DNA of 29,836 nt, from the IMG/VR virus record IMGVR_UViG_3300020438_000179, positions 1 through 29,836 of that record. The stretch is one strand, 5' to 3'. This DNA is from a virus. The notes below the pieces were generated by a model, which saw only the letters and a list, made by a program, of their open reading frames with translations, was not told the DNA's origin and did no database searches. Of this stretch, positions 1,839-19,395 are shown piece after piece. The position numbers and the translations under genes are program-made. The number at the start of each line of letters is the position of its first letter. The first letter of the stretch is position 1.

Positions 1839-1984
1839 GTGATGATTTGAATCGTATTGCAAATGCACTAGAGAGAATTGCAGACTTCTATGAAAAGGGT
1901 CTGCATGTTGATATCGATCATGCACATATAGATGACATAGGCGAAATACATGGTGATGTAGTTACGCATCCTAAACAGTTCTAA
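1835..1984 (+). CDS. Hypothetical 49-residue His/Asp-rich protein
   Basis: A short gene starts with the ATGA overlap at 1835-1838, with AGGA about eight bases upstream, and ends TAA 1982-1984. The N-terminal half (MSDDLNRIANALERIADFYE) should be an amphipathic helix. The second half alternates His and Asp (H-V-D-I-D-H-A-H-I-D-D-I), an unusual composition that could bind a divalent metal; this is speculation from composition only. The stop codon lies within the CTAAATA box that starts the next transcription unit. I recognise no family. Confidence 0.6.
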   Translation: MSDDLNRIANALERIADFYEKGLHVDIDHAHIDDIGEIHGDVVTHPKQF

Positions 1985-1987
1985 ATA
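1981..1987 (+). promoter_or_regulatory. Late-type promoter CTAAATA
   Basis: CTAAATA followed by AC matches the T4 late (gp55-type) box TATAAATA except at the first bases. The CTAAATA form is reported for T4-like cyanophages. No -35 box is visible. It overlaps the TAA of the upstream gene (1982-1984) and lies 22 bases before the ATG of the DUF2997 gene. Confidence 0.6.
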
Positions 1988-2009
1988 ACACACACTGCTT
2001 TTTTTAATT

Positions 2010-2216
2010 ATGGCATCCCAACAGACTGTTAAGTTTACTATTAAACAAGATGGTACTATTGCTGAACAAGTAATTGGTGCGAAAGGAAACGAATGTATGC
2101 TAATTACTGAAAGGATTGAAAATAGGATTGGTGATGTAGTAAGTAGAGAATTTAGTCCTGCTTTCTATGAGACTGAAGCTGTTGATGAATATGTACACGA
2201 CTCAGAGGGATGTTAA
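2010..2216 (+). CDS. DUF2997 family protein
   Basis: The product has 68 residues and matches the small DUF2997 family of cyanobacteria by pattern: a start of V-K-F-T-I-K-Q-D-G-T, then E-Q-V-I-G-A-K-G-N-E-C (about residues 19-29), a helix with I-E-N-R-I-G, and a late S-R-E-F-S-P-A-F-Y. The family function is not established. In cyanobacteria it sits beside DUF1257 (Ycf35) genes, and here the DUF1257 gene follows directly with TAA immediately before ATG, so the pair has been kept intact. No Shine-Dalgarno is present; the leader before ATG is T-rich. A late-type promoter lies just upstream. The host-derived origin is inferred from the family distribution. Confidence 0.8.
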   Translation: MASQQTVKFTIKQDGTIAEQVIGAKGNECMLITERIENRIGDVVSREFSPAFYETEAVDEYVHDSEGC

Positions 2217-2609
2217 ATGTCACACTTCACTACAATAAAGACTAAGCTAAAAGAGCGTCCTTATTTAATTGAAGCATTAGAACTATTACAATATAATGTT
2301 AAAGAAGATCAAGAATTGGTTATTGCAAACCCAGATCACGCTGAGAATCATCCTGTGGTTCATGCGGAAATTGCTATATCAGAAGATATTGGATTTCGTT
2401 GGAATGAAACAACGGAATCTTTTGATCTTTATTGTGATCGTGGTACTTGGAATCTTAATGTTCCTGTAGAAAGGTTTATTGATAAGGTGAATCAACAATA
2501 CTCAAGAATGTCAATACATAACATAGCAAAAGAAGAAGGATTTGAAGTATTGGAAGAGTGGGAAATGGATGATAATAGTATCGAATTGGTTGTCACTAGA
2601 TGGAATTGA
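2217..2609 (+). CDS. ycf35: DUF1257 (Ycf35-like) protein
   Basis: The product has 130 residues and begins MSHFTTIKTKL, the typical start of the Ycf35/DUF1257 family of cyanobacteria and plastids, followed by Y-L-I-E-A-L-E-L-L-Q-Y. The centre contains D-I-G-F-R-W-N (about residues 56-62) and F-D-L-Y-C-D, also typical. The full length agrees with the family. The biochemical function is unknown. AGAGGG about eight bases upstream is a good ribosome site, and the gene is contiguous with the DUF2997 gene. A late-type promoter suggests expression together with structural genes, although the family points to a cytoplasmic role in the host rather than a virion part. It is likely an auxiliary host-derived gene. 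Confidence 0.85.
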   Translation: MSHFTTIKTKLKERPYLIEALELLQYNVKEDQELVIANPDHAENHPVVHAEIAISEDIGFRWNETTESFDLYCDRGTWNLNVPVERFIDKVNQQYSRMSIHNIAKEEGFEVLEEWEMDDNSIELVVTRWN

Positions 2610-2619
2610 GAAAATAGGG

Positions 2620-2627
2620 TATAAATA
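2620..2627 (+). promoter_or_regulatory. T4-type late promoter TATAAATA
   Basis: An exact TATAAATA box (T4 late consensus) lies in the 42-base gap between ycf35 and gene 25. Transcription should start near 2632, giving a leader of about 20 bases before ATG 2652. The leader has no Shine-Dalgarno, but it contains the 8-base palindrome CACATGTG (2636-2643). The box would drive the wedge operon 25-6-7. Confidence 0.8.
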
Positions 2628-2651
2628 ACCTTTGACACATGTGCCAATATA

Positions 2652-3050
2652 ATGGCAGATATAAAATCTAAATCCTATAAAGATATTACTCTCGACTTTG
2701 TACCAAATCCTGTAACAGGTGATTTGAATGTAATAAAGAATGAGAGAGCAATAATGCGTTCTGTTAGAAACTTAGTTCAAACTAGGTTGCAGGAACGCTT
2801 CTACAATCCAGAATTAGGGTCAGATGTGTATGATACATTATTTGGTTTCTGCGATGTTGCTACAGGAAGTGTTCTTGCAAGAGACATAAAAAGTCTTTTA
2901 TCTCTTTGGGAACCAAGAATTGATGAGATTATAGTAGAAGCAGATCCAAGACCTGATTTAAATGAATTTGAAATAACTATTTCATACGAAATAGTAGGTG
3001 AACCATTAGCTAGGTCGTCATTTTCGTTCATTTTAGAAGCAACTAGATAA
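2652..3050 (+). CDS. 25: Baseplate wedge subunit gp25
   Basis: The product has 132 residues, the same length as T4 gp25, and belongs to the gp25-like family (sheath-initiator or 'gp25-like lysozyme' fold, related to type VI secretion TssE). The N-terminus has the family's D-x-x-L-D-F pattern followed by I-K-N-E-R-A-I and a helix with V-R-N-L-V-Q-T-R. The E-P-R-I signature (in L-W-E-P-R-I, about residues 85-90) is present and in T4 helps hold gp25 to the inner tube and gp6. In the virion it caps the wedge next to the central hub and starts sheath assembly. It begins ATGGC behind the TATAAATA promoter, and gene 6 follows after four bases. Confidence 0.93.
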   Translation: MADIKSKSYKDITLDFVPNPVTGDLNVIKNERAIMRSVRNLVQTRLQERFYNPELGSDVYDTLFGFCDVATGSVLARDIKSLLSLWEPRIDEIIVEADPRPDLNEFEITISYEIVGEPLARSSFSFILEATR

Positions 3051-3054
3051 AAAC

Positions 3055-4974
3055 ATGCCTGTAACTAAGTTTACTAACCTTGATTTTGATCAAATTAAGG
3101 CTCAAATAAGATCTTATCTTAGAGCAAACAGTAATTTTACTGATTTTGACTTTGAAGGATCAAATATATCGATGCTAATTGATATATTGGCGTATAACAC
3201 CTATATTTCAGCGTTCAATAGTAATATGGTAGTGAATGAATCCTTCTTGGATTCAGCTACATTAAGAGAAAATGTCGTTTCTTTGGCAAGAAATATTGGA
3301 TATGTACCTAGATCTCGTAAATCTGCTCAAGCAATTATAAATTTCAACTTCAAATTCAACGGAAATAGTAATACTGTCAAATTAAGGAAAGGTTTAGTTT
3401 GTGTTGGTGCTCAAAATAACACTTCTTTTACATTTTCGATACCAGAAGACATAACTGTTGTTAGTCCAATAGATGCTGGAAGCAATATTTTAACAAATCC
3501 ACCAAGAACAGCTGTATTTAACAATTTAAGTGTATATCAAGGTACACTTTTAAAGAAATATTTTAATGTAAACTCCAGTTTAGATCAAAGATTTATATTA
3601 GATAACTCATTTATTGATACTGCATCAATTAGAATCTTTGTAAGGAAGTCTGGATCTACTTCTGGGTTAGAATATTCAAAAATAGACAATATTACAAGCG
3701 TAAATGAGAAATCCAATATCTATCTTATACAAGAAATAAAGGATGAGAAGTATGAATTGCTATTTGGTGATGGATTATTTGGTAAAAAATTAGAAAATGG
3801 TGATATCATTGAAGTTAGTTATATTATTACTGATGGAAAAGCAGGAAATGATGGTAAAAACTTCTCATTTAGTGCTGAAGCAGTAGATGATGCTGGAAAT
3901 CCTCTTTCTGCATCACAAAGTCCTGTTATAACAACGATTCAAACTGCCAAGGGAGGCGGTGATATTGAAGGTATAGACTCAATTAAGTATATTGCACCTA
4001 GAGTCTATTCATCACAGTACAGGGCGGTTACAGCAAAGGATTACGAAGGTATTATACAGAGTGTTTTCCCTGATGCAGAGTCTGTTTCAGTGATTGGTGG
4101 GGAAGAATTGGATCCTCCTGAATTTGGTACAGTTATTTTAAGTGTAAAACCTCGAAATTCTACTTTCTTATCCGATTTTACTAAAGTTCAGATACTAGAA
4201 AAGTTAAAAAGTTACTCAATTGCAGGAATTAACCAAAGAATAGTAGATCTCAAGGTTATTTACTTAGAACTTGATGTTACTGCATATTATAATTCAAATA
4301 TTTTCAGTGATAAAGATGGTTTAAAGTCTCAACTTACTGATTCTTTGACAACTTACGGAAAATCTACTAATTTAAATGCATTTGGTGGTAGATTTAAGTA
4401 TTCTGATGCTTTAAAAGTTATAGATGAAACAAATAGTGCATTTACATCAAATATTACAACTCTAACTATAAGGAGAGATCTAAAACCAGTATTTAATACC
4501 TTTACACAATACGAATTATGTTTTGGTAATGCTTTTCATGTTAATCCTAAAGGTAAAAACATAAAAAGTACTGGATTTACCGTTGAAGGTAATGGTAATA
4601 CTGTTTACTTTACAGATCTTCCACATTCAGACGGAAAAACAGGAGATATTGCTGTAATTCAGTTAACTGAATTATCAGGAGATAATGCACCTGTCATTAT
4701 TCCTTCAGCTGGGACTGTTGATTATGTAAAAGGTGAAATTATCATTAATACTATCAATATTACAGGAACTTCTCGTGCTTCTGGTTTGATTGAGATTCAA
4801 GCATATCCAGAATCAAATGATGTTATTGGATTAAAAGATTTGTTCCTTCAATTAGACATGTCTAATAGTGCGATAAATATTGTGAGAGACACCATATCTT
4901 CTGGAGAACAAATATCTGGAATTGGATATAAAGTCACATCTAGTTATTCAAACGGCTCCATCATTAGATCTTAA
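3055..4974 (+). CDS. 6: Baseplate wedge subunit gp6
   Basis: The product has 639 residues, near T4 gp6 (660), with the baseplate J-like order. The N-terminus has I-K-A-Q-I-R-S-Y-L (15-23), D-F-D-F-E-G-S-N-I-S-M-L-I-D-I-L-A-Y-N-T (about 31-50) and then V-N-E-S-F-L-D-S-A-T-L-R. These equal the T4 'DYDFEGSRLNVLCDLLAYNT' region in order and type. The central part has the A-P-R-V-Y-S-S-Q-Y-R-A-V-T-A-K-D-Y-E segment (about 315-332) and L-K-S-Y-S-I-A-G, hallmarks of gpJ/gp6 proteins. In T4, dimers of gp6 form the inner iris of the baseplate and change conformation on contraction. The gene is tightly linked to gene 25 and to the giant gene (gap of six bases), so it is likely translated from the same late mRNA. 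Confidence 0.92.
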   Translation: MPVTKFTNLDFDQIKAQIRSYLRANSNFTDFDFEGSNISMLIDILAYNTYISAFNSNMVVNESFLDSATLRENVVSLARNIGYVPRSRKSAQAIINFNFKFNGNSNTVKLRKGLVCVGAQNNTSFTFSIPEDITVVSPIDAGSNILTNPPRTAVFNNLSVYQGTLLKKYFNVNSSLDQRFILDNSFIDTASIRIFVRKSGSTSGLEYSKIDNITSVNEKSNIYLIQEIKDEKYELLFGDGLFGKKLENGDIIEVSYIITDGKAGNDGKNFSFSAEAVDDAGNPLSASQSPVITTIQTAKGGGDIEGIDSIKYIAPRVYSSQYRAVTAKDYEGIIQSVFPDAESVSVIGGEELDPPEFGTVILSVKPRNSTFLSDFTKVQILEKLKSYSIAGINQRIVDLKVIYLELDVTAYYNSNIFSDKDGLKSQLTDSLTTYGKSTNLNAFGGRFKYSDALKVIDETNSAFTSNITTLTIRRDLKPVFNTFTQYELCFGNAFHVNPKGKNIKSTGFTVEGNGNTVYFTDLPHSDGKTGDIAVIQLTELSGDNAPVIIPSAGTVDYVKGEIIINTINITGTSRASGLIEIQAYPESNDVIGLKDLFLQLDMSNSAINIVRDTISSGEQISGIGYKVTSSYSNGSIIRS

Positions 4975-4980
4975 AAACGG

Positions 4981-7900
4981 ATGATCGAAACATATAGCCC
5001 ATTATCTTCAAGAGTAAAGACCTATCAGGTAGTTGCTGATCAAACTCCAGAGTTTGCTGTTGCGGAAAATCCTCTTCTAGAGAATTTTTTAGAACAATAC
5101 TATATTTCTCAAGATTACCAAGGTGGACCTGTAGATATTGGAGAGAATATTGATCAATATATCAAACTTGATAACTTAACAAAAGATGTTATATCAGGTA
5201 TAGTATCAACTTCTTCGGATATTGATGTTACTGACGATACTATTACTGTTGCAACCAATACTAAAGGGTTTCCATCAGAATGGGGTCTTTTAAAGATTGA
5301 TGATGAGATTATTACATATACAGGAGTAACTGAAAACAGCTTTACTGGTTGTATTAGGGGATTTAGTGGAATTACCACATATCATGCTGAACAGGATGTT
5401 AAAAATTTAAAATGGACAGATAGTATTGCTGCATCTCATGTATCAGGTTCAAGTATACAAAATTTAAGTGCATTATTTCTTCAAGAATTTTATGATAAGT
5501 TAAAAGCGCAATATTCACCTGGTTTAGAAGGTGTACAGTTAAGTCCTACTTTAGATGTTAATAATTTTGTAAAAGAAGCAAGAAGTTTATATGAATCTAA
5601 AGGTACTGACGAATCTTTTAAGATTTTATTTAAAGCATTGTTTGGTTTAGAACCAAAAATCAATGATCTTGAAAAATACCTTATAAAACCATCATATGCC
5701 AATTATTTAAGAAGACAATCTTTTGCTGTACAGGTAGTTTCGGGAGATCCAAATAAGTTAGTAGGTCAAACACTGTATCAAGACAATGAGATAGGTAATT
5801 TATTAGTAAATCAAGCTAGTGGACCTATTTCTGAAGTTGTGCAGATCAGAGATGACTATTATCGTATTTCTGTCTTTATTGGATATGATGATAGGGACTT
5901 AATTCAAGGTTCATTTGTTGTACCAGGAAGAACACAAGCAATTGGTACTATTGGGTTAGGAGCAACAGTAATAACTGTTGATTCTACTATTGGATTTGGT
6001 CAAACTGGTATTATTGAGGTTGGGGTATCCACAGAAACCGATTATCAACAATTAACTTACACTGAAAAAACAATAAATCAATTTATTGGTGTAACTACTA
6101 CAACAAAGGATATATCATCTACTAAAAATATCTTTACACCTACCATTGTATATGGTTATGAGGATAATGATATCTCAAAACCAGTTAATATGAAAATAAC
6201 TGGTGTTTTAAGTAAATTTGATTCTCTTGAAGATTTATATGGATTATCTGAGACTTCTAAGATTAATGTTAAGAACCTTGGAAGATTTATCACCAATCCT
6301 CAAATAGGAAAGACCTTTGAACAGATTTTCTTCAATTCTTGGGTATACAATACTAGTACAAGGTATTTGATTGATGATTTAACTGGTTCCACATTTACTT
6401 TATTGGGTGAAATTGAAAAATCTAGTTTAAAGGTTGGTGATAGGATTGAATTGTTAATAAGAAACACAGAAACTGTTGTTGCAACAGAATTAATTGTTAC
6501 TTATGTCAATACTACCAATAACTCTATTAGTGTATCTGGTACTTTCACGACTACAGCTGGATTATCATATGATATAAGAAGAATACAAGAAAAAGCAATA
6601 AGTAGTATAGTTCCTATTGTTGGTGGTCAAAATCAAATTTTATCTAGTGTTTCTAATACTTACATTTTAGATAAGAAGTATTCAGAAAGTAGTAAAAAAG
6701 AAGGATTTGTAGCTTCTAACTCTATTCCATCATATTCAATTGATACTGATAAAGTACATGCTACTTTAACGAATCCATCAGTATCTGGTGGATCATGGGA
6801 TGGATATCAGACTTTAACTAACAAATATACCACTATTTCCTTTCCACAGAATGTTCCATTCAGAACAGGTGAAGAAATTGCTTATGTTCCAGTAGGAAGT
6901 ACTACTCCTATTGGTGGGTTAACTGCAGATTCATATTTTGTAGAAGTATTAGCGCAAAAGAACAAAATTAAATTATATCCTTCAAGATCTTTTATTCCAT
7001 CAGGAATTGCAGTTGAATTTTCTCCTCCAGATACTTTAACTGGATCTCACGATTTTGTTAGAGTTGAGCAAGCAAGAAAATCAATTTTTCCAGCTAGAAC
7101 TCTTAAAAGGTTTATTCTTGACCAAGATTTAACTAAAGGCACTCAACAAAAGACAACTTCTGAAAGAACCTTAGATGGTAATACAGGAATGTTGATAAAT
7201 GGTGTAGAAATCACCAATTATAAGTCTGACAAGTATATTTACTATGGTCCTTTAAATTCATTAGATATTGTCAATGCTGGTACTGAATATGATGTTCTCA
7301 ATCCACCAAGTATAAGTATTGAGGATAATAATACAGGAATTAATACTGCATATGGTAAATTATCAATTGGCGGTTCAATTACTGATGTTTTAATTGATCC
7401 AGTTGATTTTGAAGTTAAAAAAGTTATTTCTATCGATATACATGGTGGTAATGGTAGTGATGCAAAAGCACAAGCAGTAACAGAATTAAATTATAGATTA
7501 TTTACATTTAATGCAAAATCTTTTTATAATGGAGGTAATATTGATGCTTTAGATGGAAAAGGTGGAAGATTTATAATGGATAAACCACATTATTATAAAT
7601 CTGGTGATAGAGTAGTTTATAGTGCTAATAATAATAATGTAGTTGGACTCCACACTGCTGCAGCTGTTGGTGTAGATACTTCTTTAGTTGAGGGTCAATC
7701 TTATTATGTTGGTGTGACAAGTGCAACTATATTTAAGTTGTATAGAACAAAATCTGATGCTGTTTCTGGTATTGCTAATACTGTAGGATTTGGTACAACT
7801 GCTACTGATTTAAATAGTGGTATTCATCAATTTAGAGATTATCATACTAAGAGGCGCATATCTAGAGTTAATATGCTAGATGGTGGGTCTGGATACACTA

Positions 7901-10900
7901 ATAAGACAATTTCTGTTTTACCTACAGGAATTAGTACATCTAGAGACTTTATTGAATTTGACAATCATGGATTTGAAAATGGTCAAGTAGTTCATTATGG
8001 TATATCAACTAGCGTATCAGCTTCTCCTATTACTGGATTAGCAGTAACTTCACAGTATCAAATACTAACTCTTGATGAGAATAGATTTAGATTATGCTAT
8101 TCTGGTATTGCTACAACAAGAATTCCCGATAAAACAAATTATAAAAACAAAGAATATGTGAGATTTACTGGTATTGGAACTGGTTATCAACATTTTTCAT
8201 ATCCTCCAGTAACTGTTGATGTTAATGTTATTACAGATTCAGATACTCCAGTAGTTCTAGAATCAAATCCCATTGTTCGTGGTAAGGTTGTAGGTACTGT
8301 ATTATATGATAAAGGTAGAGATTATGGATCTAATATTATCAATTTTGAAAAAGCACCTTCAGTTAATGTAAATTATGGTGCATTTGGACAAATTGGATTG
8401 ATTGTAGTTAATGGAAGAATTATTGATGCATTTGTCCAAAGTAGAGGATCTAATTATGATGGTCCTCCTGATTTAACAGTAGTTGGTGTTGGTAGTGCTT
8501 TTGGTGCTAAACTTCGTGCTGTTATGGATGGTAGTGAGATATCATCAGTTATTGTATTATCTTCAGGAGTTGGATATGCTTCATCTACTACAAGTGTACA
8601 AGTAAAAGCTCCAGGAGATGCTGCAACATTATCTACAAGAGTTAGATTACTAGTTGCTAATAAAGTTGAAACTAGTGGAACATCCAATGGTGATTATCTA
8701 ACTCCAGTTGACGGTGGATTAGCTGTAGAATCAGTTGCTTATGGAGCAACCGTTAGAAATGCGTTTGGTGATAATGGAGGTGGACATTCTCCTATAGTTG
8801 GTTGGGCATATGACGGAAATCCCATATATGGAGCATATGGTTTAACTGATGTTGATAATATTCAGTCTACATCAAAAAGAATGAGTTCTTCTTATAGACT
8901 TGATAGTAGCAAAGTTTATAATAGACCATCTTTAAGTGAGTATGAAGCAGGATTTTTTGTAGAAGATTATTATTATGACTCAAATGGAGATTTAGACGAA
9001 CATAATGGTAGATTTACAAAAACTCCAGATTTTGAAGAAGGAATTTATGCATATTTTGCAACTATTGATATTAATAGTACTCCACAATTCCCATATTATA
9101 TTGGTGACACTTTTAGAGGATTTCCTTTAACAGTTAATACTGTAGCAGGTGAAAAAATTAAACAAAGTAATTATGATTTTGAAAATTCAAATTTAGTACG
9201 AAATACCTTTCCATATAAGATGTTTGGAGATGGAGTTTCTTATGATTTTGTATATCAACCATATAAACAGATTCCTAATGTTGCAACACCTAATAGAATC
9301 AATATTGGTTCAGTAGAAAGTCTAAACATAACATCTCCTGGTACAGGATACACTATAGGAGCAAAAATTAATTTTATTGATGATGGTACTGGTGGAAGTG
9401 GTGCAAGTGCTTTTGTTAATTTACTGCAGGGTAAAGATATTAATAAAATTGACACAACATTTGAACAATATACTAATGTAGTTTTTGAATGGAGAAATAA
9501 TAAAGTTATTGGTCATTTTGATCCAAATCATTCATTGAATCTTAATGATTATGTTCAAGTTGCTGGATTATCAACTAGCATCAATAAACTTAATAATTCG
9601 CATACTATTAGTTCTTTAAATATTTCATCCACTCTATTAGAAGATGGATTTGTTGGAGTTACTACTGATATTAGAGTTCAATATATTCCACCAACAGTTT
9701 CAACTGGTGCTACAATTGGATTTTCAACATTAACACCATCTTCGGTAGGAATTGGAACAACTGTACAAATAGGACAAGAAACTGCTAGAATTCTTAATAT
9801 ATTTAAAGATGATGGAGTTCTAAGAATTCGTAGATCATCTGGAGTTGCTACTTCTGGTATAATTGGATTAGGAGTGTCATATTATGCTGATGAAATTGAA
9901 ATTCCTTTAGTTACTGATAAATTTGAATCTACACCTAATAGAAAGATATATTTTAATGCTGAAGAATCGGTTGGAATTGGAACAACTGTAGGACAAACAA
10001 TAACTAGAAATTATCAATATATTGGAGTTACTAAATCTAGATCTTTAAAGACTCAAGAAATATATTTGAAAGAACATGGTCTTAAGACTAATGATGTTTT
10101 AAATTACACAAAAGCTCCTAGTGGAACTACTTTAGGAATAAAAACTGATGGAATTGGAAATACTTTCAATATACCATCTATAGTTTATGCTGTAAGAAAG
10201 ACTGAAGATACTATCGGTGTAAAAACTACCAAAACATCCAATGATGTATTTTTTGTAGTTGGTGGTGGTGATTATAATGATGCTCTTTTTGAGGTTGTAC
10301 CAAGTAAGCAAGTTACTGGAAATGTAGAGAAAATTACATCTACTATTCAAACTGCAGAAAATCATGAATTACAAAATAATGATAATATTCAATTAATTGT
10401 CCAACCTGGTCTTTCTACTGGTATTGGAACAACAACTTTTGCAACTGTTAAAGTTATTGATGATTATTTAATAATTAATCCTCTTAGTGTTGAACCATCT
10501 GGAATAAACACAGTTAATAATAGAATTACTGCATATCAACATAATTTAATAACTGGTGATAAAGTTTTATACTATGGATCTAATCTTCCTGGTGGAATTT
10601 ATCAAAGAGAATATTATGTTGTTAAAATTGATGATAATACGATTCAATTAGCGAATACTCTCAAAGAAACTCAAGGAACTCCTAATGTTGTTGATATTAC
10701 TGGTGTTGGTATTGGGTCTTGGAGTATTAATCCAATTAACCCACAATTAAGACCATTTAGAAGTAATGATATCATATTTGATATGAGTGACCCTAGTTTA
10801 GTAGATAATAATTTAAAATTCTATTATGATAGTAATTTCTTTAATGAATTTGTTGGATCTGGCACAAGTCTTGGATTTGAAATAGTTGGTGTTAGTACTT

Positions 10901-13900
10901 TAGCAACTGTTGGTGTTGCATCAACAAATCCTAATTCTGATAGTCATCCAACTATAACAGTTAAATATTCTGAAACTTCTCCAAAAATATTATATTATAG
11001 TTTATTCACTAATGCTGGTATTAGTACAGCTGATGATACAGTTTTTAATGGTTCTCAAATCAAGTATATTGATAGTTCATATACTTTAGATTATCCAGTT
11101 ACAAGTATTGGTGATACTACATTTACAATCAATTTAAAATATAAACCAGAATCTTTAAATTATAAATCTTTAGATTGTAAAATATTAGAATATACAACAA
11201 CATCTTCTAATGTTACAGGTGGTATTTCCTCAACACAAATAATTAATCCTGGATTAAATTATGCTAGACTTCCTGGTATTAGTAGTATTGGTGACCGTGG
11301 AATAAATGCTACTGTAATTGCTCAGTCTACTGAAATTAATAAATTAGATAGTTTAACCGTTCCTGATGATGTTTATGGTTATCCATCCGATAGAACTCTT
11401 CAACCAGATGCTTTTGTACCTAGAGTTGTTAATATAGACAGTTTTGCAACTATTGATGAAGTTAAGGTAATTGATGGTGGTAAATTCTATATCAATGCTC
11501 CTTCTTTGGTTTTATTTGATAAATCAGATGGTAGTATTATTGATAGTGGACTCATTGTTTGTGAGTTAAGCGATTCTGCTGTAACTAAAGCAACTGTTTC
11601 TGTACCTCCTATTGGTCTTTCTAATAATGACTTTGGTATTGCTCCAATAAGAAATAGTAATGGAATTAGTATTATCAATGTTCAAGCAGCTGCTGGTATA
11701 CTAACTGCTACAATTACTACTCCAGTTTTAGGGTATGTAACAGAACCAATAGTAATTGGTGACAAATTATTAGTAGAAGGCATTGGATATGATGCTGGAA
11801 GTGGTGATGGATATAACTCTGGTGATTATAAGTTCGTTCCATTTGAAGTTACTGATTATAATGATGCCGTTAACCCAAGAGAAGTCACTTTCAATTTAAA
11901 TGGTATTTCTACAAATCCTGGTACTGGAGCAACAGTTTCCTTTGGATTTGGTCAATTAACACAAGCTAATTTTCTTGCTCAATTTGAAGTTGTTAAAGGT
12001 GCTTCTAAATTTATTGAAAACGAACCATTTAAAAGAAACAATAATCCAATAGCAGATGTTGCTTTAGACTTTATTGATTCTAATGCTGCTAAGATTATTG
12101 TTAGTGGTGCAGAACCTCTTGAAATCAATGATATATTAACTGGTAAATTGAGTGGTTCTTCATGTAGAGTAATTGGAATTCAAGAGTTTAATGGAAGTTT
12201 TGATATAGCATCTTCTGTTAAAACATTAGTTGGTTGGAGAGATAATGTTGGTATTATTAATGATACTAATCAAGTATTGCCTGATAATGATTATTATCAA
12301 AATCTTTCTTATGCGATAGAGAGTCCTAAAACTTATGAAGATTTAATCACCTATGTTAATGATATAGTTCATCCATCGGGATTGAAGAATTTTGCTAACA
12401 CTGAAGTTATAGCAAAAGGTCAACCTGGTGACACAAATATTCCAGCAGAAGATGCTGGTGGTTTGGTTCTTGATTTTATTGGTGATCCACTTAGAGTTGA
12501 TTCAATATATCCATATGATTTAGCAAGAGATTTTGAATCTCAGGGTAATATCTCTAAATTTATAGAATTGAGAAATACTCGACTTTCTGACTTTATTTTA
12601 AATAAAACAAACAGAGTTCTTAATATTGATGATATTAGTTCTAAATTTGTGTCTAATGAGTCTAATGATTTAACTGATTCTAGGACAGTTGCTACTTATT
12701 CTGGGGGTAGGTACTTCCAAAGGTTCTTAACACAAACTGTACATCAAGCAGAAGATCCTGCTAAGAATCATTATCAACTTAATGAATTTATTTCAGTAAC
12801 TGTTGATGAAAGCACTTATTTACTTCAAAAGCAAGATTTAACTAATTGGAATCAAGTTGTTGGTCTTGGTACTGGATATGGAACTTTTGATACAAATTAT
12901 TCACAAGCGTTATCACAAACTCAATTAATTTTCCGTCCTAATGAACCATTTGACACTGATTATGAAGTTAAGTCACTACAGACTAATTTCTCAGATTCTC
13001 TAGGTGTTGGTTCTTCGGCATTTGGACATTTCAGATTAGAAGGTGGTAATACACAGATTAGTGCTGCTAGTACTTTAGGAACTTCTACTACTGGTAATAT
13101 ATTTGGAATATCTACTACATCATCACAAGCTGCTATTGTACAATTATTAGTAATTGATGAAGAAGGTGCTAAACAAGTTGATTATTTGGAATATGCACTT
13201 ATGCACAATGGTGTTGACACATATCTAACTGAATTAGCAGCATTTAACTCAAAACAAAATTTAAGTGGATTATCTGCTCCTCAGTTTATTGGTACAGTAA
13301 CATCTAAGATTGAAAGTGGGTTGGTTAAGTTTGATTTTGAAAATGGTCGTACAAATACTGTTAATGTTAAATTTAAGTCAACTATAGTTGATCCTTCTAC
13401 TGTTGGTGCAGCTAACTATAGATTTAAAATTCCATTTACACCAGATGGTACAGAAAGAACTGCAAGACTTGAAGTTACAAGTCAAGCAAAATCTGGTATT
13501 GCAACAGTAGTTGGTTTAACAAGTATTACTGATCTATCTGTCAAATCAACAATTCATGTTGGTTACGGTGAAACTCAATCTTTACATCAAGTTTATCTAT
13601 TATCTGATCCAGAAAAGAGTATGACTTTTATAAGTGAAACTCCTTTGGCAGCAGTTGGATCTACTAGTGGTATAGGTACATTTGGATCTACTTATAGATC
13701 AGATGGTACTTATGGATTGGAATTCCATCCATCTGTTTCTGGTATTGTAAGTGTTTCTGCTTATAATGAAGTATTATATAAAGATCTAGATCCTAATGGT
13801 ACTATAGAAGGTATTGGTGAATTAAATTATGGAGAAGTATATGAAAATGTTGCCCAACAAATATATTTGGGTATTAATAATAGAAATGTTAAATCATTCG

Positions 13901-16900
13901 ATTTAAATTATAATGGAATTCCAATTTATGCTCGTGAAACAAATATTGCAGATAATACTGAAATAAATCGTTCAACTGGTGTGTTTAACCAAATACATTT
14001 CTTCTCTAATACTGAACAATTATCATACCTTCCAGATTCTAACCTTATTGGTATTGGTGGATCTGCATTAATCTACAGTACTGGTGCAGGTGTAACTGGA
14101 TATCTTCCATCTACTGTATACACTATTAAGGATAACAATCAACAATATAGGATTGCTTTAACAGAGAATGATGCAATAGCAGGTCTTGGTGTAACCTTCC
14201 TTGAAGGTACTGGTACTGGTAATAAGCATAGATTCTCTATGAGAAAGAGAGATTCTAAGTCAATGATCTCTATTAGTGGTCTTGTACAAAAACCATTATC
14301 ATACACTTCAATTAATTATGATTTAAATGTTCCTGTTTCTGGATTTGTAACTGCATTTGTATTGAGTGGTATTTCTTCTGTAACTTCTGGAGACTTACTT
14401 AAAATTGAAGATGAATATTCTATTGTAAGAACTGTTGGTTTTGGTACAACTACTATTGGACCAGTTGTAGGAATTGGTACATGGACACTTGTAGAAGTAG
14501 AAAGAGGCGCAGTTGGTACTGCTGCTACAGTACATGCATCTGGTCAAACAGTTAGACTCTTTAGAGGATCTTTCCAAATTTTAGATAGTCAAATACATTT
14601 CACTCAAGCACCTCTTGGTGGTGATAAAGGAATAGTTAACTCTGCTAACTTACCATATGCTAGAGCATCATTTGGTGGTAGAACATTCCTCAGAAGAGAC
14701 TATGAGAAGAACCAGATATTTGATGATATGTCAGAGAGTTTTGATGGATTGGAAACTACTTATCCATTAACTTCTATTGGAGTTGCTGTTACTGGTATTG
14801 GATCAACAGGTGGTAATGGAGTATTATTCATCAATAATATCTTCCAAGCACCATATAGTGAGAATAATACTAGTGCTAATTTCAGGATTCAAGATAATCC
14901 TTCTGCAGGTATTGCTAGTGTTCAATTTACAGGTATTAGTTCTGTAGGATTTGAAACTCCAATAATAGACATAGGAGATATTAATGAGAATCAACTTCCT
15001 AGAGGTGGTGTAATAATTTCTGTTGCATCAACACCAGGTAGAGGATATGCACCATTTGTAGGTGCTAAAGTAAAACCAATAATCAACTCTTATGGAGTTA
15101 TTCAAAGTATTGTTGGTGTTCCGACAACGGGATCAGCTGTTGCTATTAGTACTGCAACTTATAATAATATTACTGGTATTATTGAAGTTACTACATTAGC
15201 ACCACATAATCTTAAGATCGAAGAACCAGTTAAGTTGGAAGGTTTAGAATTTGCTTGTAGTGGATATGGTAATACTTTAGGAATTACTTCCTTTGTTTAT
15301 GATCACATAAGCGGTATTGCTACTATTATTACTAATGCTGCTCATGGATTTACTGATCCAAATCTAATTGGTATTGCTACAGGTTCTCTTACCTTTACTT
15401 GTGGTATGGATAGTAATGCCACTAACCATGTTTATCCTAGAGTTGGAGATCCTATTCATGATAAGTTATTAGAAGTTCGTGCAGTAACAGATAATACATT
15501 TGATGTATTTGTTGGTATTACAACTAATGTTGGTTATACACCTACAAATGCCATCTATGATGCTAATGCTGGTATTATGACGATGACTATACCTAACCAT
15601 AATATTATGGCAGGTAGAAGTATCAAGATTAAGAATAGTTCACTTGACTTTAAGTGTGCTATGGATGGCACTAGTCAGACAAAATCATATCCTAGATCTA
15701 CAGACCCTGTATATGATACCGCAATTTCTGTTGCCTCTACTACTGCTACTGGTATTGCTATAACTGTAGGAACATCTCCTATTGTTAATTATGATATTAG
15801 TACTGCAACTTATACACCTTCCACTGGATTCCTTTCTCTTGACATCGGATCTCATACATTAACGGAAGGAACTTCTATTAAGTTAAAGACAGAATCGCTT
15901 ATTTTCCGTTGCAATACAGATAGTTATATTTCAACTCACACATATCCACGCAATATTATTGACACTCAAACTGTTAATGGCGCAGTTTATGATGCAAATG
16001 CTGGTATAATGACCGTCACAGTTGTACCTGGCGGCAGACTTATTCACGATGGAGACTTTATCAAGTTTGATAATGACTCTATTTCCTTTAAGTGCGACAT
16101 GGATGGCGGTACATCAACTAAAACATATCCAAGATCATCTGATCCTGTTAGTGGTAAGTGGTTACCTATTACAGGCATCACAACCACCTCGTTTAGTGTT
16201 GAAGTAGGTAAGTCACCTATAGAACCTTTTGGCATCACCTCGGCGGTTTATGACCCCACTGCTGGTATTGTAACAGCTACTATCGGTGATCATAATTTCA
16301 TGACAGGTGTTTCTATCCAAATTTCACCTGAATCTTTATCATTCCGATGTGGTTTAGACACTTATCAGAGTTTGCATTATTATCCAAGATCTAGCGATCC
16401 TGGATTTACAACTGCGGTTTCTATTGCTTCTACAAGCGCAAATACTATTTCATTCCAAGTTTTAGCGTCACAACCATCTACAAATATTTCAACACACCAT
16501 TTTGTACCGCATAATGGACTAACTGCTGAATCTGGTACGCAATATGATGGTGCTGTTGGTGTCATGACAGTTAGATCTGCTAATCACGGTCTTACCAATG
16601 GTGATTGGGTTCTATTTGATACTGGTTCAGTTACCTTTACATGCGCTAAAGATGATTATAGCACAACTCATGCATATCCTAGAGAAACAGATCCTTATAG
16701 TGGAAAATGGACACAGGTATCGCATGTAACTACAAATACATTTAGAGTAGATGTTGGAATATCTCCTGATACTTCAGATCATATATTCTCTTCTGGTGTA
16801 ACAGGTGGTATCACAAGATCTCAAATTCATGGTGGTGGTGCTTATGGACATACCTTCCAAGCTGCTGGTGTTGGTAGTATGGATCAGAAGCGTGATAGAT

Positions 16901-19395
16901 CATTTGACCAAGCAATAGGTATTCACTCAGTTAGTGGTAATGTTATTACCCTTCAAGTTGGTGTTTCTACTGATACCAGTGAGCATCGTTATGATATTAT
17001 GGCAGGTCATGAAGCAACTGATGCGGTCATCAGTGGTGGTGCTTATGCACATACATTCCAAAGTGCTTTATCTGGCGCAGTTCAGTATGGTGGAAACTAC
17101 CCTCATAGTTTTGTAAGTTCTGCTGCTAACCCACTTCGCATTGATACATGGGCAGGTACTGCATTGACTCCAACAAATGCTGTATACAATCCTATTTCTG
17201 GAGTTCTACAATTTACAGTTCCTAATCATGGATTAGTGAAACCAGAAAACTTTAAGTTGTCAGGTATTGGTGTTACTTGTGTATATGGTGCTAAATCATA
17301 TCCAAGTGGTGTTCAGGGTTACTTCTACACAGTAAGAGAATCTATCAACTCAACTAAGTTTACTACTACAGTTGGAATGTCTACTGTTTCTCATCAATAT
17401 GTGAGTGGTGGTGAAGTTAGAACAGGTATTACTACTAATATATTCCCAGATTATGATCAACAATTGGATGTAACTACTATTCTTTCAACTAAGAAATTTA
17501 GAGTTAATGCTGGTCCAAGTACTATCCCACATTCATATGTAACTGGTGGTACTGCTTCTCCTTACTATGATTTAACATTTGGATCTGGATATACAACAGA
17601 TCTTGGTACAATTACTGCTATAGGAGCATCTGATTCTGTTGGATCTGGTGCAAATATTACTGCAGTAGTGGGTGCTGGTGGATCATTAATATACACTCTT
17701 GTAAATGGTGGCGCAAATTATACTGAAGATACAGTTATTAATACATTGCAACCATCTGGTGAACTTCTAAGTATTGAAGGTAAGTTTAGATTAGGACTTG
17801 GAAATACTACAACTACTGGTGTTGGATGTTCTATTACTGTTGACATCGTAGGATTAACTACAAATTATGTTGGATATTCTACCTCACCAGAATTTGAATT
17901 ATTTGAAGTTTCTAAATGGAACTTAGCAAAAGCTGGATATGGATTTAAGAAAGGTGATAAGTTTGGTGTAGCTGGTCTATCAACAGATCCTAATGCAGGT
18001 GATCTATTCATGCCATTTGAAATTGAAGTTATTGATATATTCAATGATGATATATCAGCTTGGCAGTTTGGTAATTTAGATTATATTGATAATATTAGAC
18101 CTTTCCAAGATGGTGAAAGACGGAGATATCCTCTTTATTATCAAAATCAGTTAATTAGTTTTGAGATTGATAATAACGATCCAGATTCTAGACAGATCGA
18201 TCTTGCACCTGTTCTTTTGATATTTGTTAATGGTGTTCTTCAAGAACCAAATAAGCATTATACATTCAATGGTGGAACTTCGGTTAGTTTTGAAACTGCT
18301 CCAACTGTAAATGACGATGTATTCATATTCTTCTATAGAGGAACAATTGGTACAGATAGTATGTTATTTGATGTTAACGAACTTATTAAAGAAGGTGATT
18401 CAGTCGAATTGTTTAAGAGTTCTGAACTTGAAAGAAACAATGTTGTAAAAGATAATAGTAATTTTGCACAAAGAGAAGCTCGAATTGTTAGTAGAATTGC
18501 TACAGCATCTGTTGTAGAAACACCATTCTATCAAGGTGGTGGTGTTAATAATAATGATTATAAACCATTAAGATGGAATAAGCAAAAAATTGATAAAGTT
18601 TTTGCTGGTGGATTAGTTTCTAAAGCAAGAGATTCTCAGGAAGCACAGATCTATCCAAATGCTAATGTTATTGCATCTTATGCATCAACTGATACATCGT
18701 TATTCGTTGATCATACAGAATACTTTAGAGATCTTGATGGTCAATTAACTGATGATTTTGGACTTTATGTTTATGGTGTTGGTGTTGGTACAACTGCACA
18801 AGCAGGGGTTAACTGGGAGATTTGGAATGATATTGATCCTTTGAATACCGATGTTAAGGGATATACTGGTTTAATTACTGGTATTACAACTTCTGTTGGT
18901 ATTGGTACTGATCTTGCAATTGTATTCCAATTAGACACTAACAACTTAGTTAATAGTGAAAATGCTTCATTCGTTCAAGACTTTAAAGAAGGATATCCAT
19001 TTAAAGTCTACGCATCAGGAGTGACACCTGCTGCTGGAGTGATAACTAGTACTGATACACATGATTCTGATAGTATTGGTATTAGTACCTTTGAAGTTGA
19101 TAATATATACTATGCACATTCACTATCATGGGACGGAAGTGCTAGAACAGGTGTTATAACCTGCAATATCCATTCTGGAACTGATATAACTGGATTAGTT
19201 GGTGTTGGATCAACTACTCATCCTGCAGCGAGATTTACATGGGGACGCTTCTCTTCAGCATTAAGAGATGCCAATTACCCAGTTTCTCTAACAGCTAAAG
19301 GACTTGATTATAATCATGACTTGGACAAGTGGCCAATTGTACAAAGGCGCAATATTGGTCTTAGAAATACTGGAGCCTTCAATAAAACCTTATAA
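4981..19395 (+). CDS. 7: Giant gp7-like baseplate wedge/virion structural protein
   Basis: This single unbroken frame gives 4804 residues, over four times T4 gp7 (1032). The first ~340 residues (A-V-A-E-N-P-L-L-E-N-F-L at about 27-38, then helices and D-E-S-F-K-I-L-F-K-A-L-F-G) are the conserved N-terminus of cyanophage gp7-type proteins, which should anchor it in the wedge between gp6 and gp8. The rest is a chain of beta-rich modules. It includes an E-I-I-T-Y-T/R-G module (about 79-140, again 3124-3192), many G-x-G-Y glycine modules, a YHYH-like domain (1262-1380), a repeat array with periodic F-x-C (3391-3939, 4066-4144), three G-G-x-Y-x-H-x-F motifs (3954, 4021, 4038), and near the C-terminus an F-V-N-G-V-L-Q-E-P segment with an F-F-Y-R-G-T turn. 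The protein is probably displayed on the baseplate periphery. The gp7 identity rests on the N-terminus and the position between genes 6 and 8. The function of the large extension is unknown. Confidence 0.8.
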   Translation: MIETYSPLSSRVKTYQVVADQTPEFAVAENPLLENFLEQYYISQDYQGGPVDIGENIDQYIKLDNLTKDVISGIVSTSSDIDVTDDTITVATNTKGFPSEWGLLKIDDEIITYTGVTENSFTGCIRGFSGITTYHAEQDVKNLKWTDSIAASHVSGSSIQNLSALFLQEFYDKLKAQYSPGLEGVQLSPTLDVNNFVKEARSLYESKGTDESFKILFKALFGLEPKINDLEKYLIKPSYANYLRRQSFAVQVVSGDPNKLVGQTLYQDNEIGNLLVNQASGPISEVVQIRDDYYRISVFIGYDDRDLIQGSFVVPGRTQAIGTIGLGATVITVDSTIGFGQTGIIEVGVSTETDYQQLTYTEKTINQFIGVTTTTKDISSTKNIFTPTIVYGYEDNDISKPVNMKITGVLSKFDSLEDLYGLSETSKINVKNLGRFITNPQIGKTFEQIFFNSWVYNTSTRYLIDDLTGSTFTLLGEIEKSSLKVGDRIELLIRNTETVVATELIVTYVNTTNNSISVSGTFTTTAGLSYDIRRIQEKAISSIVPIVGGQNQILSSVSNTYILDKKYSESSKKEGFVASNSIPSYSIDTDKVHATLTNPSVSGGSWDGYQTLTNKYTTISFPQNVPFRTGEEIAYVPVGSTTPIGGLTADSYFVEVLAQKNKIKLYPSRSFIPSGIAVEFSPPDTLTGSHDFVRVEQARKSIFPARTLKRFILDQDLTKGTQQKTTSERTLDGNTGMLINGVEITNYKSDKYIYYGPLNSLDIVNAGTEYDVLNPPSISIEDNNTGINTAYGKLSIGGSITDVLIDPVDFEVKKVISIDIHGGNGSDAKAQAVTELNYRLFTFNAKSFYNGGNIDALDGKGGRFIMDKPHYYKSGDRVVYSANNNNVVGLHTAAAVGVDTSLVEGQSYYVGVTSATIFKLYRTKSDAVSGIANTVGFGTTATDLNSGIHQFRDYHTKRRISRVNMLDGGSGYTNKTISVLPTGISTSRDFIEFDNHGFENGQVVHYGISTSVSASPITGLAVTSQYQILTLDENRFRLCYSGIATTRIPDKTNYKNKEYVRFTGIGTGYQHFSYPPVTVDVNVITDSDTPVVLESNPIVRGKVVGTVLYDKGRDYGSNIINFEKAPSVNVNYGAFGQIGLIVVNGRIIDAFVQSRGSNYDGPPDLTVVGVGSAFGAKLRAVMDGSEISSVIVLSSGVGYASSTTSVQVKAPGDAATLSTRVRLLVANKVETSGTSNGDYLTPVDGGLAVESVAYGATVRNAFGDNGGGHSPIVGWAYDGNPIYGAYGLTDVDNIQSTSKRMSSSYRLDSSKVYNRPSLSEYEAGFFVEDYYYDSNGDLDEHNGRFTKTPDFEEGIYAYFATIDINSTPQFPYYIGDTFRGFPLTVNTVAGEKIKQSNYDFENSNLVRNTFPYKMFGDGVSYDFVYQPYKQIPNVATPNRINIGSVESLNITSPGTGYTIGAKINFIDDGTGGSGASAFVNLLQGKDINKIDTTFEQYTNVVFEWRNNKVIGHFDPNHSLNLNDYVQVAGLSTSINKLNNSHTISSLNISSTLLEDGFVGVTTDIRVQYIPPTVSTGATIGFSTLTPSSVGIGTTVQIGQETARILNIFKDDGVLRIRRSSGVATSGIIGLGVSYYADEIEIPLVTDKFESTPNRKIYFNAEESVGIGTTVGQTITRNYQYIGVTKSRSLKTQEIYLKEHGLKTNDVLNYTKAPSGTTLGIKTDGIGNTFNIPSIVYAVRKTEDTIGVKTTKTSNDVFFVVGGGDYNDALFEVVPSKQVTGNVEKITSTIQTAENHELQNNDNIQLIVQPGLSTGIGTTTFATVKVIDDYLIINPLSVEPSGINTVNNRITAYQHNLITGDKVLYYGSNLPGGIYQREYYVVKIDDNTIQLANTLKETQGTPNVVDITGVGIGSWSINPINPQLRPFRSNDIIFDMSDPSLVDNNLKFYYDSNFFNEFVGSGTSLGFEIVGVSTLATVGVASTNPNSDSHPTITVKYSETSPKILYYSLFTNAGISTADDTVFNGSQIKYIDSSYTLDYPVTSIGDTTFTINLKYKPESLNYKSLDCKILEYTTTSSNVTGGISSTQIINPGLNYARLPGISSIGDRGINATVIAQSTEINKLDSLTVPDDVYGYPSDRTLQPDAFVPRVVNIDSFATIDEVKVIDGGKFYINAPSLVLFDKSDGSIIDSGLIVCELSDSAVTKATVSVPPIGLSNNDFGIAPIRNSNGISIINVQAAAGILTATITTPVLGYVTEPIVIGDKLLVEGIGYDAGSGDGYNSGDYKFVPFEVTDYNDAVNPREVTFNLNGISTNPGTGATVSFGFGQLTQANFLAQFEVVKGASKFIENEPFKRNNNPIADVALDFIDSNAAKIIVSGAEPLEINDILTGKLSGSSCRVIGIQEFNGSFDIASSVKTLVGWRDNVGIINDTNQVLPDNDYYQNLSYAIESPKTYEDLITYVNDIVHPSGLKNFANTEVIAKGQPGDTNIPAEDAGGLVLDFIGDPLRVDSIYPYDLARDFESQGNISKFIELRNTRLSDFILNKTNRVLNIDDISSKFVSNESNDLTDSRTVATYSGGRYFQRFLTQTVHQAEDPAKNHYQLNEFISVTVDESTYLLQKQDLTNWNQVVGLGTGYGTFDTNYSQALSQTQLIFRPNEPFDTDYEVKSLQTNFSDSLGVGSSAFGHFRLEGGNTQISAASTLGTSTTGNIFGISTTSSQAAIVQLLVIDEEGAKQVDYLEYALMHNGVDTYLTELAAFNSKQNLSGLSAPQFIGTVTSKIESGLVKFDFENGRTNTVNVKFKSTIVDPSTVGAANYRFKIPFTPDGTERTARLEVTSQAKSGIATVVGLTSITDLSVKSTIHVGYGETQSLHQVYLLSDPEKSMTFISETPLAAVGSTSGIGTFGSTYRSDGTYGLEFHPSVSGIVSVSAYNEVLYKDLDPNGTIEGIGELNYGEVYENVAQQIYLGINNRNVKSFDLNYNGIPIYARETNIADNTEINRSTGVFNQIHFFSNTEQLSYLPDSNLIGIGGSALIYSTGAGVTGYLPSTVYTIKDNNQQYRIALTENDAIAGLGVTFLEGTGTGNKHRFSMRKRDSKSMISISGLVQKPLSYTSINYDLNVPVSGFVTAFVLSGISSVTSGDLLKIEDEYSIVRTVGFGTTTIGPVVGIGTWTLVEVERGAVGTAATVHASGQTVRLFRGSFQILDSQIHFTQAPLGGDKGIVNSANLPYARASFGGRTFLRRDYEKNQIFDDMSESFDGLETTYPLTSIGVAVTGIGSTGGNGVLFINNIFQAPYSENNTSANFRIQDNPSAGIASVQFTGISSVGFETPIIDIGDINENQLPRGGVIISVASTPGRGYAPFVGAKVKPIINSYGVIQSIVGVPTTGSAVAISTATYNNITGIIEVTTLAPHNLKIEEPVKLEGLEFACSGYGNTLGITSFVYDHISGIATIITNAAHGFTDPNLIGIATGSLTFTCGMDSNATNHVYPRVGDPIHDKLLEVRAVTDNTFDVFVGITTNVGYTPTNAIYDANAGIMTMTIPNHNIMAGRSIKIKNSSLDFKCAMDGTSQTKSYPRSTDPVYDTAISVASTTATGIAITVGTSPIVNYDISTATYTPSTGFLSLDIGSHTLTEGTSIKLKTESLIFRCNTDSYISTHTYPRNIIDTQTVNGAVYDANAGIMTVTVVPGGRLIHDGDFIKFDNDSISFKCDMDGGTSTKTYPRSSDPVSGKWLPITGITTTSFSVEVGKSPIEPFGITSAVYDPTAGIVTATIGDHNFMTGVSIQISPESLSFRCGLDTYQSLHYYPRSSDPGFTTAVSIASTSANTISFQVLASQPSTNISTHHFVPHNGLTAESGTQYDGAVGVMTVRSANHGLTNGDWVLFDTGSVTFTCAKDDYSTTHAYPRETDPYSGKWTQVSHVTTNTFRVDVGISPDTSDHIFSSGVTGGITRSQIHGGGAYGHTFQAAGVGSMDQKRDRSFDQAIGIHSVSGNVITLQVGVSTDTSEHRYDIMAGHEATDAVISGGAYAHTFQSALSGAVQYGGNYPHSFVSSAANPLRIDTWAGTALTPTNAVYNPISGVLQFTVPNHGLVKPENFKLSGIGVTCVYGAKSYPSGVQGYFYTVRESINSTKFTTTVGMSTVSHQYVSGGEVRTGITTNIFPDYDQQLDVTTILSTKKFRVNAGPSTIPHSYVTGGTASPYYDLTFGSGYTTDLGTITAIGASDSVGSGANITAVVGAGGSLIYTLVNGGANYTEDTVINTLQPSGELLSIEGKFRLGLGNTTTTGVGCSITVDIVGLTTNYVGYSTSPEFELFEVSKWNLAKAGYGFKKGDKFGVAGLSTDPNAGDLFMPFEIEVIDIFNDDISAWQFGNLDYIDNIRPFQDGERRRYPLYYQNQLISFEIDNNDPDSRQIDLAPVLLIFVNGVLQEPNKHYTFNGGTSVSFETAPTVNDDVFIFFYRGTIGTDSMLFDVNELIKEGDSVELFKSSELERNNVVKDNSNFAQREARIVSRIATASVVETPFYQGGGVNNNDYKPLRWNKQKIDKVFAGGLVSKARDSQEAQIYPNANVIASYASTDTSLFVDHTEYFRDLDGQLTDDFGLYVYGVGVGTTAQAGVNWEIWNDIDPLNTDVKGYTGLITGITTSVGIGTDLAIVFQLDTNNLVNSENASFVQDFKEGYPFKVYASGVTPAAGVITSTDTHDSDSIGISTFEVDNIYYAHSLSWDGSARTGVITCNIHSGTDITGLVGVGSTTHPAARFTWGRFSSALRDANYPVSLTAKGLDYNHDLDKWPIVQRRNIGLRNTGAFNKTL
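5215..5400 (+). repeat. E-I-I-x-Y-T/R-G module, copy 1 (within the gp7-like gene)
   Basis: Residues about 79-140 of the giant protein run D-D-T-I-T-V ... L-L-K-I-D-D-E-I-I-T-Y-T-G ... F-T-G-C-I-R-G-F-S-G ... H. The pattern is a beta strand, then I-x-x-E-x-I-x-Y, a variable hairpin, and R-G followed by a T/S-rich turn and His. It recurs in the same protein (14350-14556) and in the DUF4815 protein (27105-27320). Similarity is at protein level only. Confidence 0.6.
8764..9120 (+). other. YHYH-like domain inside the gp7-like protein
   Basis: Residues 1262-1380 have the ordered signature of the YHYH family (PF14240-type): G-G-G-H-S-P-I-V-G-W-A-Y-D-G-N-P-I-Y-G at 1266-1284, a Y-x-L/acidic stretch, L-D-E-H-N-G-R-F-T-K-T-P (1338-1349), G-I-Y-A-Y-F (1354-1359) and F-P-Y-Y-I-G-D (1370-1376). 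The eponymous tetrapeptide appears here as Y-A-Y-F, so the central histidines are replaced. The family function is poorly known; here it would be a structural or ligand-binding module. This is recognised by motif order from memory, not by a search. Confidence 0.65.
14350..14556 (+). repeat. E-I-I-x-Y-T/R-G module, copy 2 (within the gp7-like gene)
   Basis: Residues about 3124-3192 carry G-D-L-L-K-I-E-D-E-Y-S-I-V, a long hairpin, then V-E-V-E-R-G-A-V-G-T-A-A-T-V-H-A-S-G. It is the second copy of the module seen near the N-terminus of the same protein. The R-G-x-x-G-T-x-A-x-x-H ending is clearer here. Confidence 0.6.
15151..17412 (+). repeat. Eight-unit degenerate repeat array with periodic cysteine
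   Basis: The units follow the pattern Y-D/N-x-x-x-G-I-x-T-x-T-(I)-x-x-H-x-x-x-x-G-x-S-I-K-x-x-x-x-S-L-x-F-x-C-x-x-D-x-x-x-x-x-x-Y-P-R-x-x-D-P, then a variable tail ending V-G-x-S-P. The unit cysteines fall at residues 3426, 3474, 3559, 3644, 3705, 3790, 3888 and 4100. Spacings are 85 for units 1-2, 2-3 and 4-5, but 61 between 3 and 4, where the tail segment is missing, and 98 between 5 and 6. The first and last units are degenerate. A separate segment with G-G-x-Y-x-H-x-F motifs (residues 3940-4050) interrupts the array before the last unit. Confidence 0.8.
16831..17112 (+). repeat. Three G-G-x-Y-x-H-x-F motifs
   Basis: Residues about 3951-4044 of the giant protein carry G-G-A-Y-G-H-T-F-Q, then G-G-A-Y-A-H-T-F-Q and G-G-N-Y-P-H-S-F (tyrosines 3955, 4022, 4040). 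Histidines are aligned in each copy. They lie between unit 6 and the last unit of the cysteine array. Short basic and acidic segments (K-R-D-R-S-F-D) separate the first two. Confidence 0.65.

Follow-up and report, generated by a model that had tools for sequence, protein, structure and literature searches.

A DUF2997-Ycf35 gene pair in T4-like cyanophages, possibly an accessory factor of a host AAA+ ATPase

A T4-like cyanophage carries, directly before its baseplate wedge genes, two adjacent genes of families known from cyanobacteria. This raises the question of whether the two products work as a unit, and on what part of the host they might act. We examined the window, by which we mean the whole 29,836-base virus record, together with related loci from viruses and cyanobacteria.

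The gene pair and its linkage in viruses

The features around the pair are collected in Table 1. Both proteins match their Pfam families over the full profile, DUF2997 with 52.7 bits against a cut-off of 24.1 (positions 1-47 of 47) and Ycf35 with 64.2 bits against 22.2 (positions 1-103 of 103); neither matched in NCBIfam. The two frames touch on the same strand, with the TAA at 2214-2216 abutting the ATG at 2217. A preliminary description had reported such a pair in front of the wedge genes, and the open reading frames, the Pfam matches and the gp25 and gp6 genes that come next confirm it. Directly after gp6, positions 4981-19395 hold one frame of 4,804 aa.

Table 1. Features of the window around the DUF2997-Ycf35 pair.
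Feature	Positions	Strand	Basis or remark
Small companion gene, 49 aa	1835..1984	+	phrog_35332 (PHROG); His-rich conserved C-terminus; directly 5' of the pair
Late-type promoter motif TCTAAATAAC	1980..1989	+	21-30 nt before the DUF2997 start; overlaps the companion-gene stop codon
DUF2997 gene, 68 aa	2010..2216	+	PF11211, E 3.8e-14; phrog_23133, E 2.2e-20
Candidate Shine-Dalgarno-like AGAGGG for the Ycf35 start	2204..2209	+	Within the DUF2997 gene end; read off the sequence
Ycf35 (DUF1257) gene, 130 aa	2217..2609	+	PF06868, E 1.5e-17; phrog_20456, E 8.9e-35
Late-type promoter motif TATAAATAAC	2620..2629	+	Before gp25, between the pair and that gene
gp25 baseplate wedge gene (flank)	2652..3050	+	PF04965; phrog_261
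gp6 baseplate wedge gene (flank)	3055..4974	+	PF21379; phrog_219

IMG/VR scans with four queries confirmed 357, 12, 46 and 139 relatives, from which 80, 12, 46 and 80 loci were fetched. The viral set comprised 220 sources, made up of the window and L001-L219; five of these 220 are repeats of a place already covered. DUF1257 was present in all 220, and DUF2997 in 214, always upstream on the same strand (209 of 215 without the repeats); in the six loci that lack it, the contig ends only 5-80 nt before DUF1257. The converse test was seeded with a DUF2997 alignment and covered 80 of 251 loci, many from the same contigs. DUF1257 lay downstream in 79 of these, and the remaining locus is cut inside DUF2997. 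The spacing is mostly an overlap of -1 to -80 nt, or 0, and three contigs (L101, L105, L122) have an ORF of about 160 aa between the two genes, which by eye resembles a 2OG-Fe(II) oxygenase. Among 50,697 phage records, the identical 15 were found for DUF2997 and for Ycf35, namely P-SSM2, P-SSM5, P-SSM7 and marine viruses from single-cell data, with no Synechococcus phage by name among the 15. The earlier claim that the genes are kept as a unit is thus strongly supported in viruses, and frequent separation in phages, the observation named as speaking against it, was not found in the fetched viral loci.

A homologous adjacent pair is already on record as T4-GC 174 and 175 of P-SSM2 and P-SSM7, annotated only as hypothetical proteins and located beside gp43 or psbA, whereas the pair in the window precedes gp25. 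The available part of PMC13131479 notes that DUF2997 is present in some viruses. In the literature on Ycf35, DUF2997, Ycf46 and Fed7, as far as the accessible portions of PMC4284462, PMC13131479, PMC8875361, PMC5940233, PMC8141849, PMC3037559, PMC7496141 and PMC7283877 extend, we found no description of the phage pair and none of a connection between DUF2997 and the AAA family.

Insertion sites, promoters and descent

We sorted the 215 viral loci by flanking families, with site names taken from one representative each. The pair occupies at least nine neighbourhoods (Table 2), plus 13 loci elsewhere, and a Ycf35 tree of 158 rows requires at least 46 site changes (shuffled mean 107). With cellular homologues, a patchy distribution among phages and a variable position, the pair has the marks of a host-like auxiliary cassette. 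It resembles psbA, hli, talC and other cyanophage auxiliary genes, which the available text of PMC3037559 covers, in being host-type, patchy and variably placed; unlike them, it is of uncharacterised function and consists of two genes kept together.

Table 2. Neighbourhoods of the pair, and loci with NNTAAATA within 70 nt upstream of DUF2997.
Neighbourhood	Viral loci (of 215)	Loci with NNTAAATA
DNA polymerase gp43 block	41	14 of 34, mostly closer than -25
Head closure and tail sheath stabilizer	32	10 of 28
gp25/gp6	30	18 of 24 distinct loci, nearly all near -30
Tail tube/UvsY	21	4 of 13
nrdB/NAD synthetase	19	5 of 12
psbA	19	0 of 13
Terminase	19	12 of 14
Cytidyltransferase	11	1 of 10
Transaldolase	10	0 of 8

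The companion gene travels with the pair in part: phrog_35332 lies within 150 nt 5' of it in 58 of 203 viral loci, spread over eight of the nine named site classes. By blastn it occurs in 7 phage records, and the P-SSM2 copy is located away from the pair. A tblastn search with the 49-aa protein gave no match, perhaps because of the low-complexity filter. In the window, the 3' end of the companion gene runs into the late-type motif.

Motif counts for the window as a whole are unremarkable, with TAAATAAC observed 3 times against 3.5 expected and TATAAATA with one mismatch 85 times against 120. The motif upstream of DUF2997, TCTAAATA, is one mismatch from TATAAATA and is alone no rarer than chance in this A/T-rich window, but it is positionally common at the gp25 site. 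Its weight comes from the recurrence of that position in 18 of 24 gp25-site loci. Over all sites, 66 of 166 distinct viral loci have NNTAAATA in the 70 nt that precede DUF2997, compared with 9% in base shuffles. Since the counts differ by site (Table 2), the late-type promoter appears to go with the site; the motif was not seen at the psbA and transaldolase sites, so expression in late infection would not be general. The suggestion in the preliminary description that the products act during late infection would therefore hold only for some insertion sites, such as gp25 and terminase, and not for psbA and transaldolase. The same data bear on whether the pair could be a virion or morphogenesis factor, as its place before gp25 and the frequent motif at the gp25 and terminase sites would suggest. 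We consider this very improbable, given that the same pair is also found beside DNA polymerase, nrdB, psbA and transaldolase, at the last two of which the motif is missing.

To follow descent, we used a Ycf35 tree of 73 rows (38 viral and 35 cyanobacterial), from which 11 long or odd rows of 84 were left out. The viral sequences form one side of a branch with support 100/99 and are not nested among the hosts. The 84-row tree was set aside; in it the very long branch of L373 was placed inside the viral rows, which for this reason needed 2 changes. In the DUF2997 tree (72 of 87 rows), support for the viral rows was 42/76, with no contradiction of a single viral group. Distance matrices of the phage DUF2997 and Ycf35 proteins gave a Mantel r of 0.246 (2 of 2000 permutations came out as high), compared with 0.50 for the two halves of Ycf35, and 6 of 37 phage rows had a nearest neighbour common to both trees. 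The two trees are thus weakly congruent in phages; either alleles may recombine while the genes stay neighbours, or DUF2997 may be too short to tell. Independent acquisition, the other observation that would speak against a retained unit, was accordingly not found for Ycf35 within the 73 rows retained, and for DUF2997 the answer is less firm. As a separate observation, the Ycf35 of L086 (2841-3215) looks mosaic, with an N-terminal half close to P-SSM2 and a C-terminal half close to the window.

Median dN/dS values were 0.09 (580 pairs) and 0.16 (136 pairs), biased low because the pairs were preselected at 85-98% protein identity. Viral and host proteins share 37-45% identity. One could suppose that the pair is a passenger that does nothing for the phage, since only the 15 records noted above hold it, compared with 578 records whose match extends over 80% or more of the gp6 of the window (2,327 match it at all). 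With low dN/dS, even from a biased sample, and adjacency kept through the many site changes counted above, we find this hardly credible.

A predicted joint fold

We modeled the two proteins as a single 199-residue chain by reading the TAA as Gln, using an alignment of 79 rows, of which 21 were read-through pairs. The AlphaFold2 model of the joint chain reached a pLDDT of 90.9 and a pTM of 0.86 over the 199 residues, with low values only at the joint, and DUF2997 is predicted to have a beta-beta-alpha-beta topology. Ycf35 with the joining residue makes up 131 of the 199 residues (0.66), so a DUF2997 that floated freely would make a pTM of 0.86 difficult to attain. As a control, a chain of Ycf35 read into gp25 had a pTM of 0.48; pLDDT in the first Ycf35 block fell from 92 to 79 and in the last blocks from 96/97/96 to 77/75/68, so that confidence dropped at the terminal strands of Ycf35. 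The alignment included only 9 gp25 rows and the gp25 part was itself poorly folded, which makes this an imperfect control. Two earlier alignments had been dropped, one for the joint chain in which all 60 DUF2997-only rows were misplaced onto Ycf35, and one for the control in which 10 of 11 gp25-only rows were misplaced.

Foldseek gave no match in the PDB at E 0.001 and one among viral models (A0A7S5REL3, E 6e-4), and Ycf35 had no sequence relatives in the PDB at E 10. The best rows from VIA-align were 6xyb (Z 9.0), KCTD1 (8.7) and the GFRP complex (6.2), and the top PDB alignments extend across the two domains (residues 3..197). Because Z values of this size are close to those of models without a match, we claim no fold family. 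Judging from the predicted model, DUF2997 and Ycf35 most likely act as one heterodimer. The earlier proposal that the two products act together is supported, at the level of a prediction, by the joint fold and by their constant adjacency.

Candidate partners in the cyanobacterial host

Among 146 genomes of the cyanobacterial phylum, DUF1257 occurs in 74 and DUF2997 in 87. DUF2997 lies within 350 nt upstream in 62 of the 64 genomes with a full-length-type DUF1257, and in the two others 1.7-1.9 kb away. The other ten DUF1257 genomes include one with the genes adjacent (G018, L363), seven in which the genes fall on different contigs or are separated by 45 kb, and two without DUF2997. The statement that the pair is known from cyanobacteria is borne out by these 62 genomes and by the available part of PMC4284462, with the reservation that seven further genomes of the same search have the genes apart. 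Long "fusion" frames with DUF1257 or DUF2997 (L349, L350, L363, L233) were rejected by eye as open-frame artefacts of G+C-rich DNA. The 557-aa frame of L351 (3602-5272; G099:C71), with a C-terminal DUF1257, looks like a real fusion; its N-terminal part is helical and NTPase/HEAT-like by eye, with no Pfam match. In L364 and L366, DUF2997 adjoins a gene that resembles glutamate-cysteine ligase, as judged by Pfam on one representative.

The available text of PMC4284462 describes a cyanobacterial operon duf2997-ycf35-fed7 ("cluster g") and the induction of fed7 by low iron, high light and low Ci, and that of PMC8875361 reports a SigD dependence common to fed7, ssl1263 and ycf35. The commonest order in our bacterial loci (70 of 168) has a HEAT_PBS gene before DUF2997-Ycf35 and a 4Fe-4S ferredoxin after it, each identified from one representative, and the ferredoxin fits the fed7 of that operon. 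The phage pair is like the operon in having the same two families adjacent with DUF2997 first. It differs in that fed7 is absent: in the window the next gene is gp25, no Fed7 match was found in the ORFs of the 220 viral loci, and the pair has moved among phage neighbourhoods. In other host loci, DUF2997 or Ycf35 paralogues stand beside an AAA+ ATPase, Hsp70, GrpE (annotated in L301) or GUN4-like proteins.

We built a profile for the N-terminal part of this ATPase from loci beside DUF2997 or Ycf35. The family is presumably Ycf46 (Slr0374), which would fit a printed operon description. The profile matches 93 of the 146 genomes, comprising 87 of the 87 with DUF2997 and 6 of the 59 without (Fisher p 1.9e-33, not corrected for kinship). 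Fifteen genomes hold DUF2997 and the AAA gene but no Pfam DUF1257, and in the ten of these that were fetched the AAA gene is at most three genes from DUF2997. A short DUF1257 paralogue, confirmed as DUF1257 by Pfam in the two tested, follows a same-strand AAA match by 0.9-1.1 kb in at least 49 of the 57 genomes that carry it; on inspection, two of the remaining eight (L398, L402) also have the AAA gene adjacent. All 12 fetched loci, which were largely picked from the 57-genome list, likewise have the paralogue behind the AAA gene. DUF1257, DUF2997 and AAA share one block on all four plasmids inspected of 14 hits, and a Leptolyngbya plasmid has DUF1257, DUF2997, AAA and Ycf34 in one row. The cyanobacterial plasmids L302, L303 and L304 carry such blocks with WGR-domain genes, one with Ycf34 and one typed as conjugative. 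In L370-L378 except L373, which come from small genomes of the phylum, the neighbours of DUF2997 are the AAA ATPase and either a radical-SAM protein or an uncharacterised one, and DUF1257 is absent. Exactly one such AAA gene is present in seven of eight genomes (three Prochlorococcus and five small relatives). The AAA gene was not found in the 220 viral loci searched, so with Fed7 also missing there, the link of the phage pair to either is indirect. In the portions of the published work available, the slr0374 (ycf46) operon responds to iron, high light, oxidative and other stresses, and red-algal plastids retain ycf34, ycf35 and ycf46 in one common marine/freshwater pattern.

Our best guess for the partner of the pair is the Ycf46-like ATPase, and Fed7 could be a further partner or an alternative one. 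In what is available in print, the slr0374 operon and fed7 respond to overlapping stresses. The pair might instead work only with Fed7 as an auxiliary of iron or redox stress, the task of the host operon, and the AAA association would then reflect paralogues and shared ancestry. The operon, the HEAT-DUF2997-Ycf35-ferredoxin order and the joint SigD dependence argue for this. The 15 genomes with DUF2997 and AAA but no Pfam DUF1257, and the DUF1257 paralogue behind the AAA gene, argue against it, and on balance we think it unlikely.

We tentatively favor, with somewhat less than even confidence, the explanation that T4-like cyanophages carry the pair as an auxiliary cassette and that its products form a heterodimer which assists an AAA+/ferredoxin stress machine of the host. 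The two-gene cassette would be of cyanobacterial origin. DUF2997 is predicted to pack on the edge strands of Ycf35, and the resulting heterodimer may serve as a small accessory or adaptor factor of the host Ycf46-like AAA+ ATPase and, in the host, also of the neighbour-encoded 4Fe-4S ferredoxin Fed7. The phage would bring the accessory pair only and use the host's single ATPase copy, and the aim may be to keep up or redirect the host stress response during infection. The cassette would move among many sites and take the expression class of each, as with the putative late-type promoter in the window. A phage pair that mimics the host factor could also act as a decoy or inhibitor that shuts the machine down, which would suit accessory proteins that lack their own ATPase or ferredoxin in viral loci and have diverged from the host. 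We judge this quite improbable in view of the low dN/dS of both genes, their full-length domains and neighbourhoods that include the auxiliary metabolic genes psbA and transaldolase.

Beyond the accessory-factor explanation, we put forward a bolder and more doubtful idea: DUF2997, Ycf35 and the Ycf46-like AAA+ protein might form one previously unrecognised stress machine, extending from cyanobacteria to algal plastids, whose regulatory heterodimer cyanophages steal as a mobile cassette to command the host ATPase. Ycf35 and Ycf46 are long-standing unassigned reading frames of cyanobacteria and algal plastids. That phage Ycf35 is kept only with DUF2997, together with the predicted heterodimer and the phyletic tie to the AAA+ family, would turn three uncharacterised genes into one testable complex, and suggests a stress pathway whose control may pay off for phages while they infect abundant ocean cyanobacteria.
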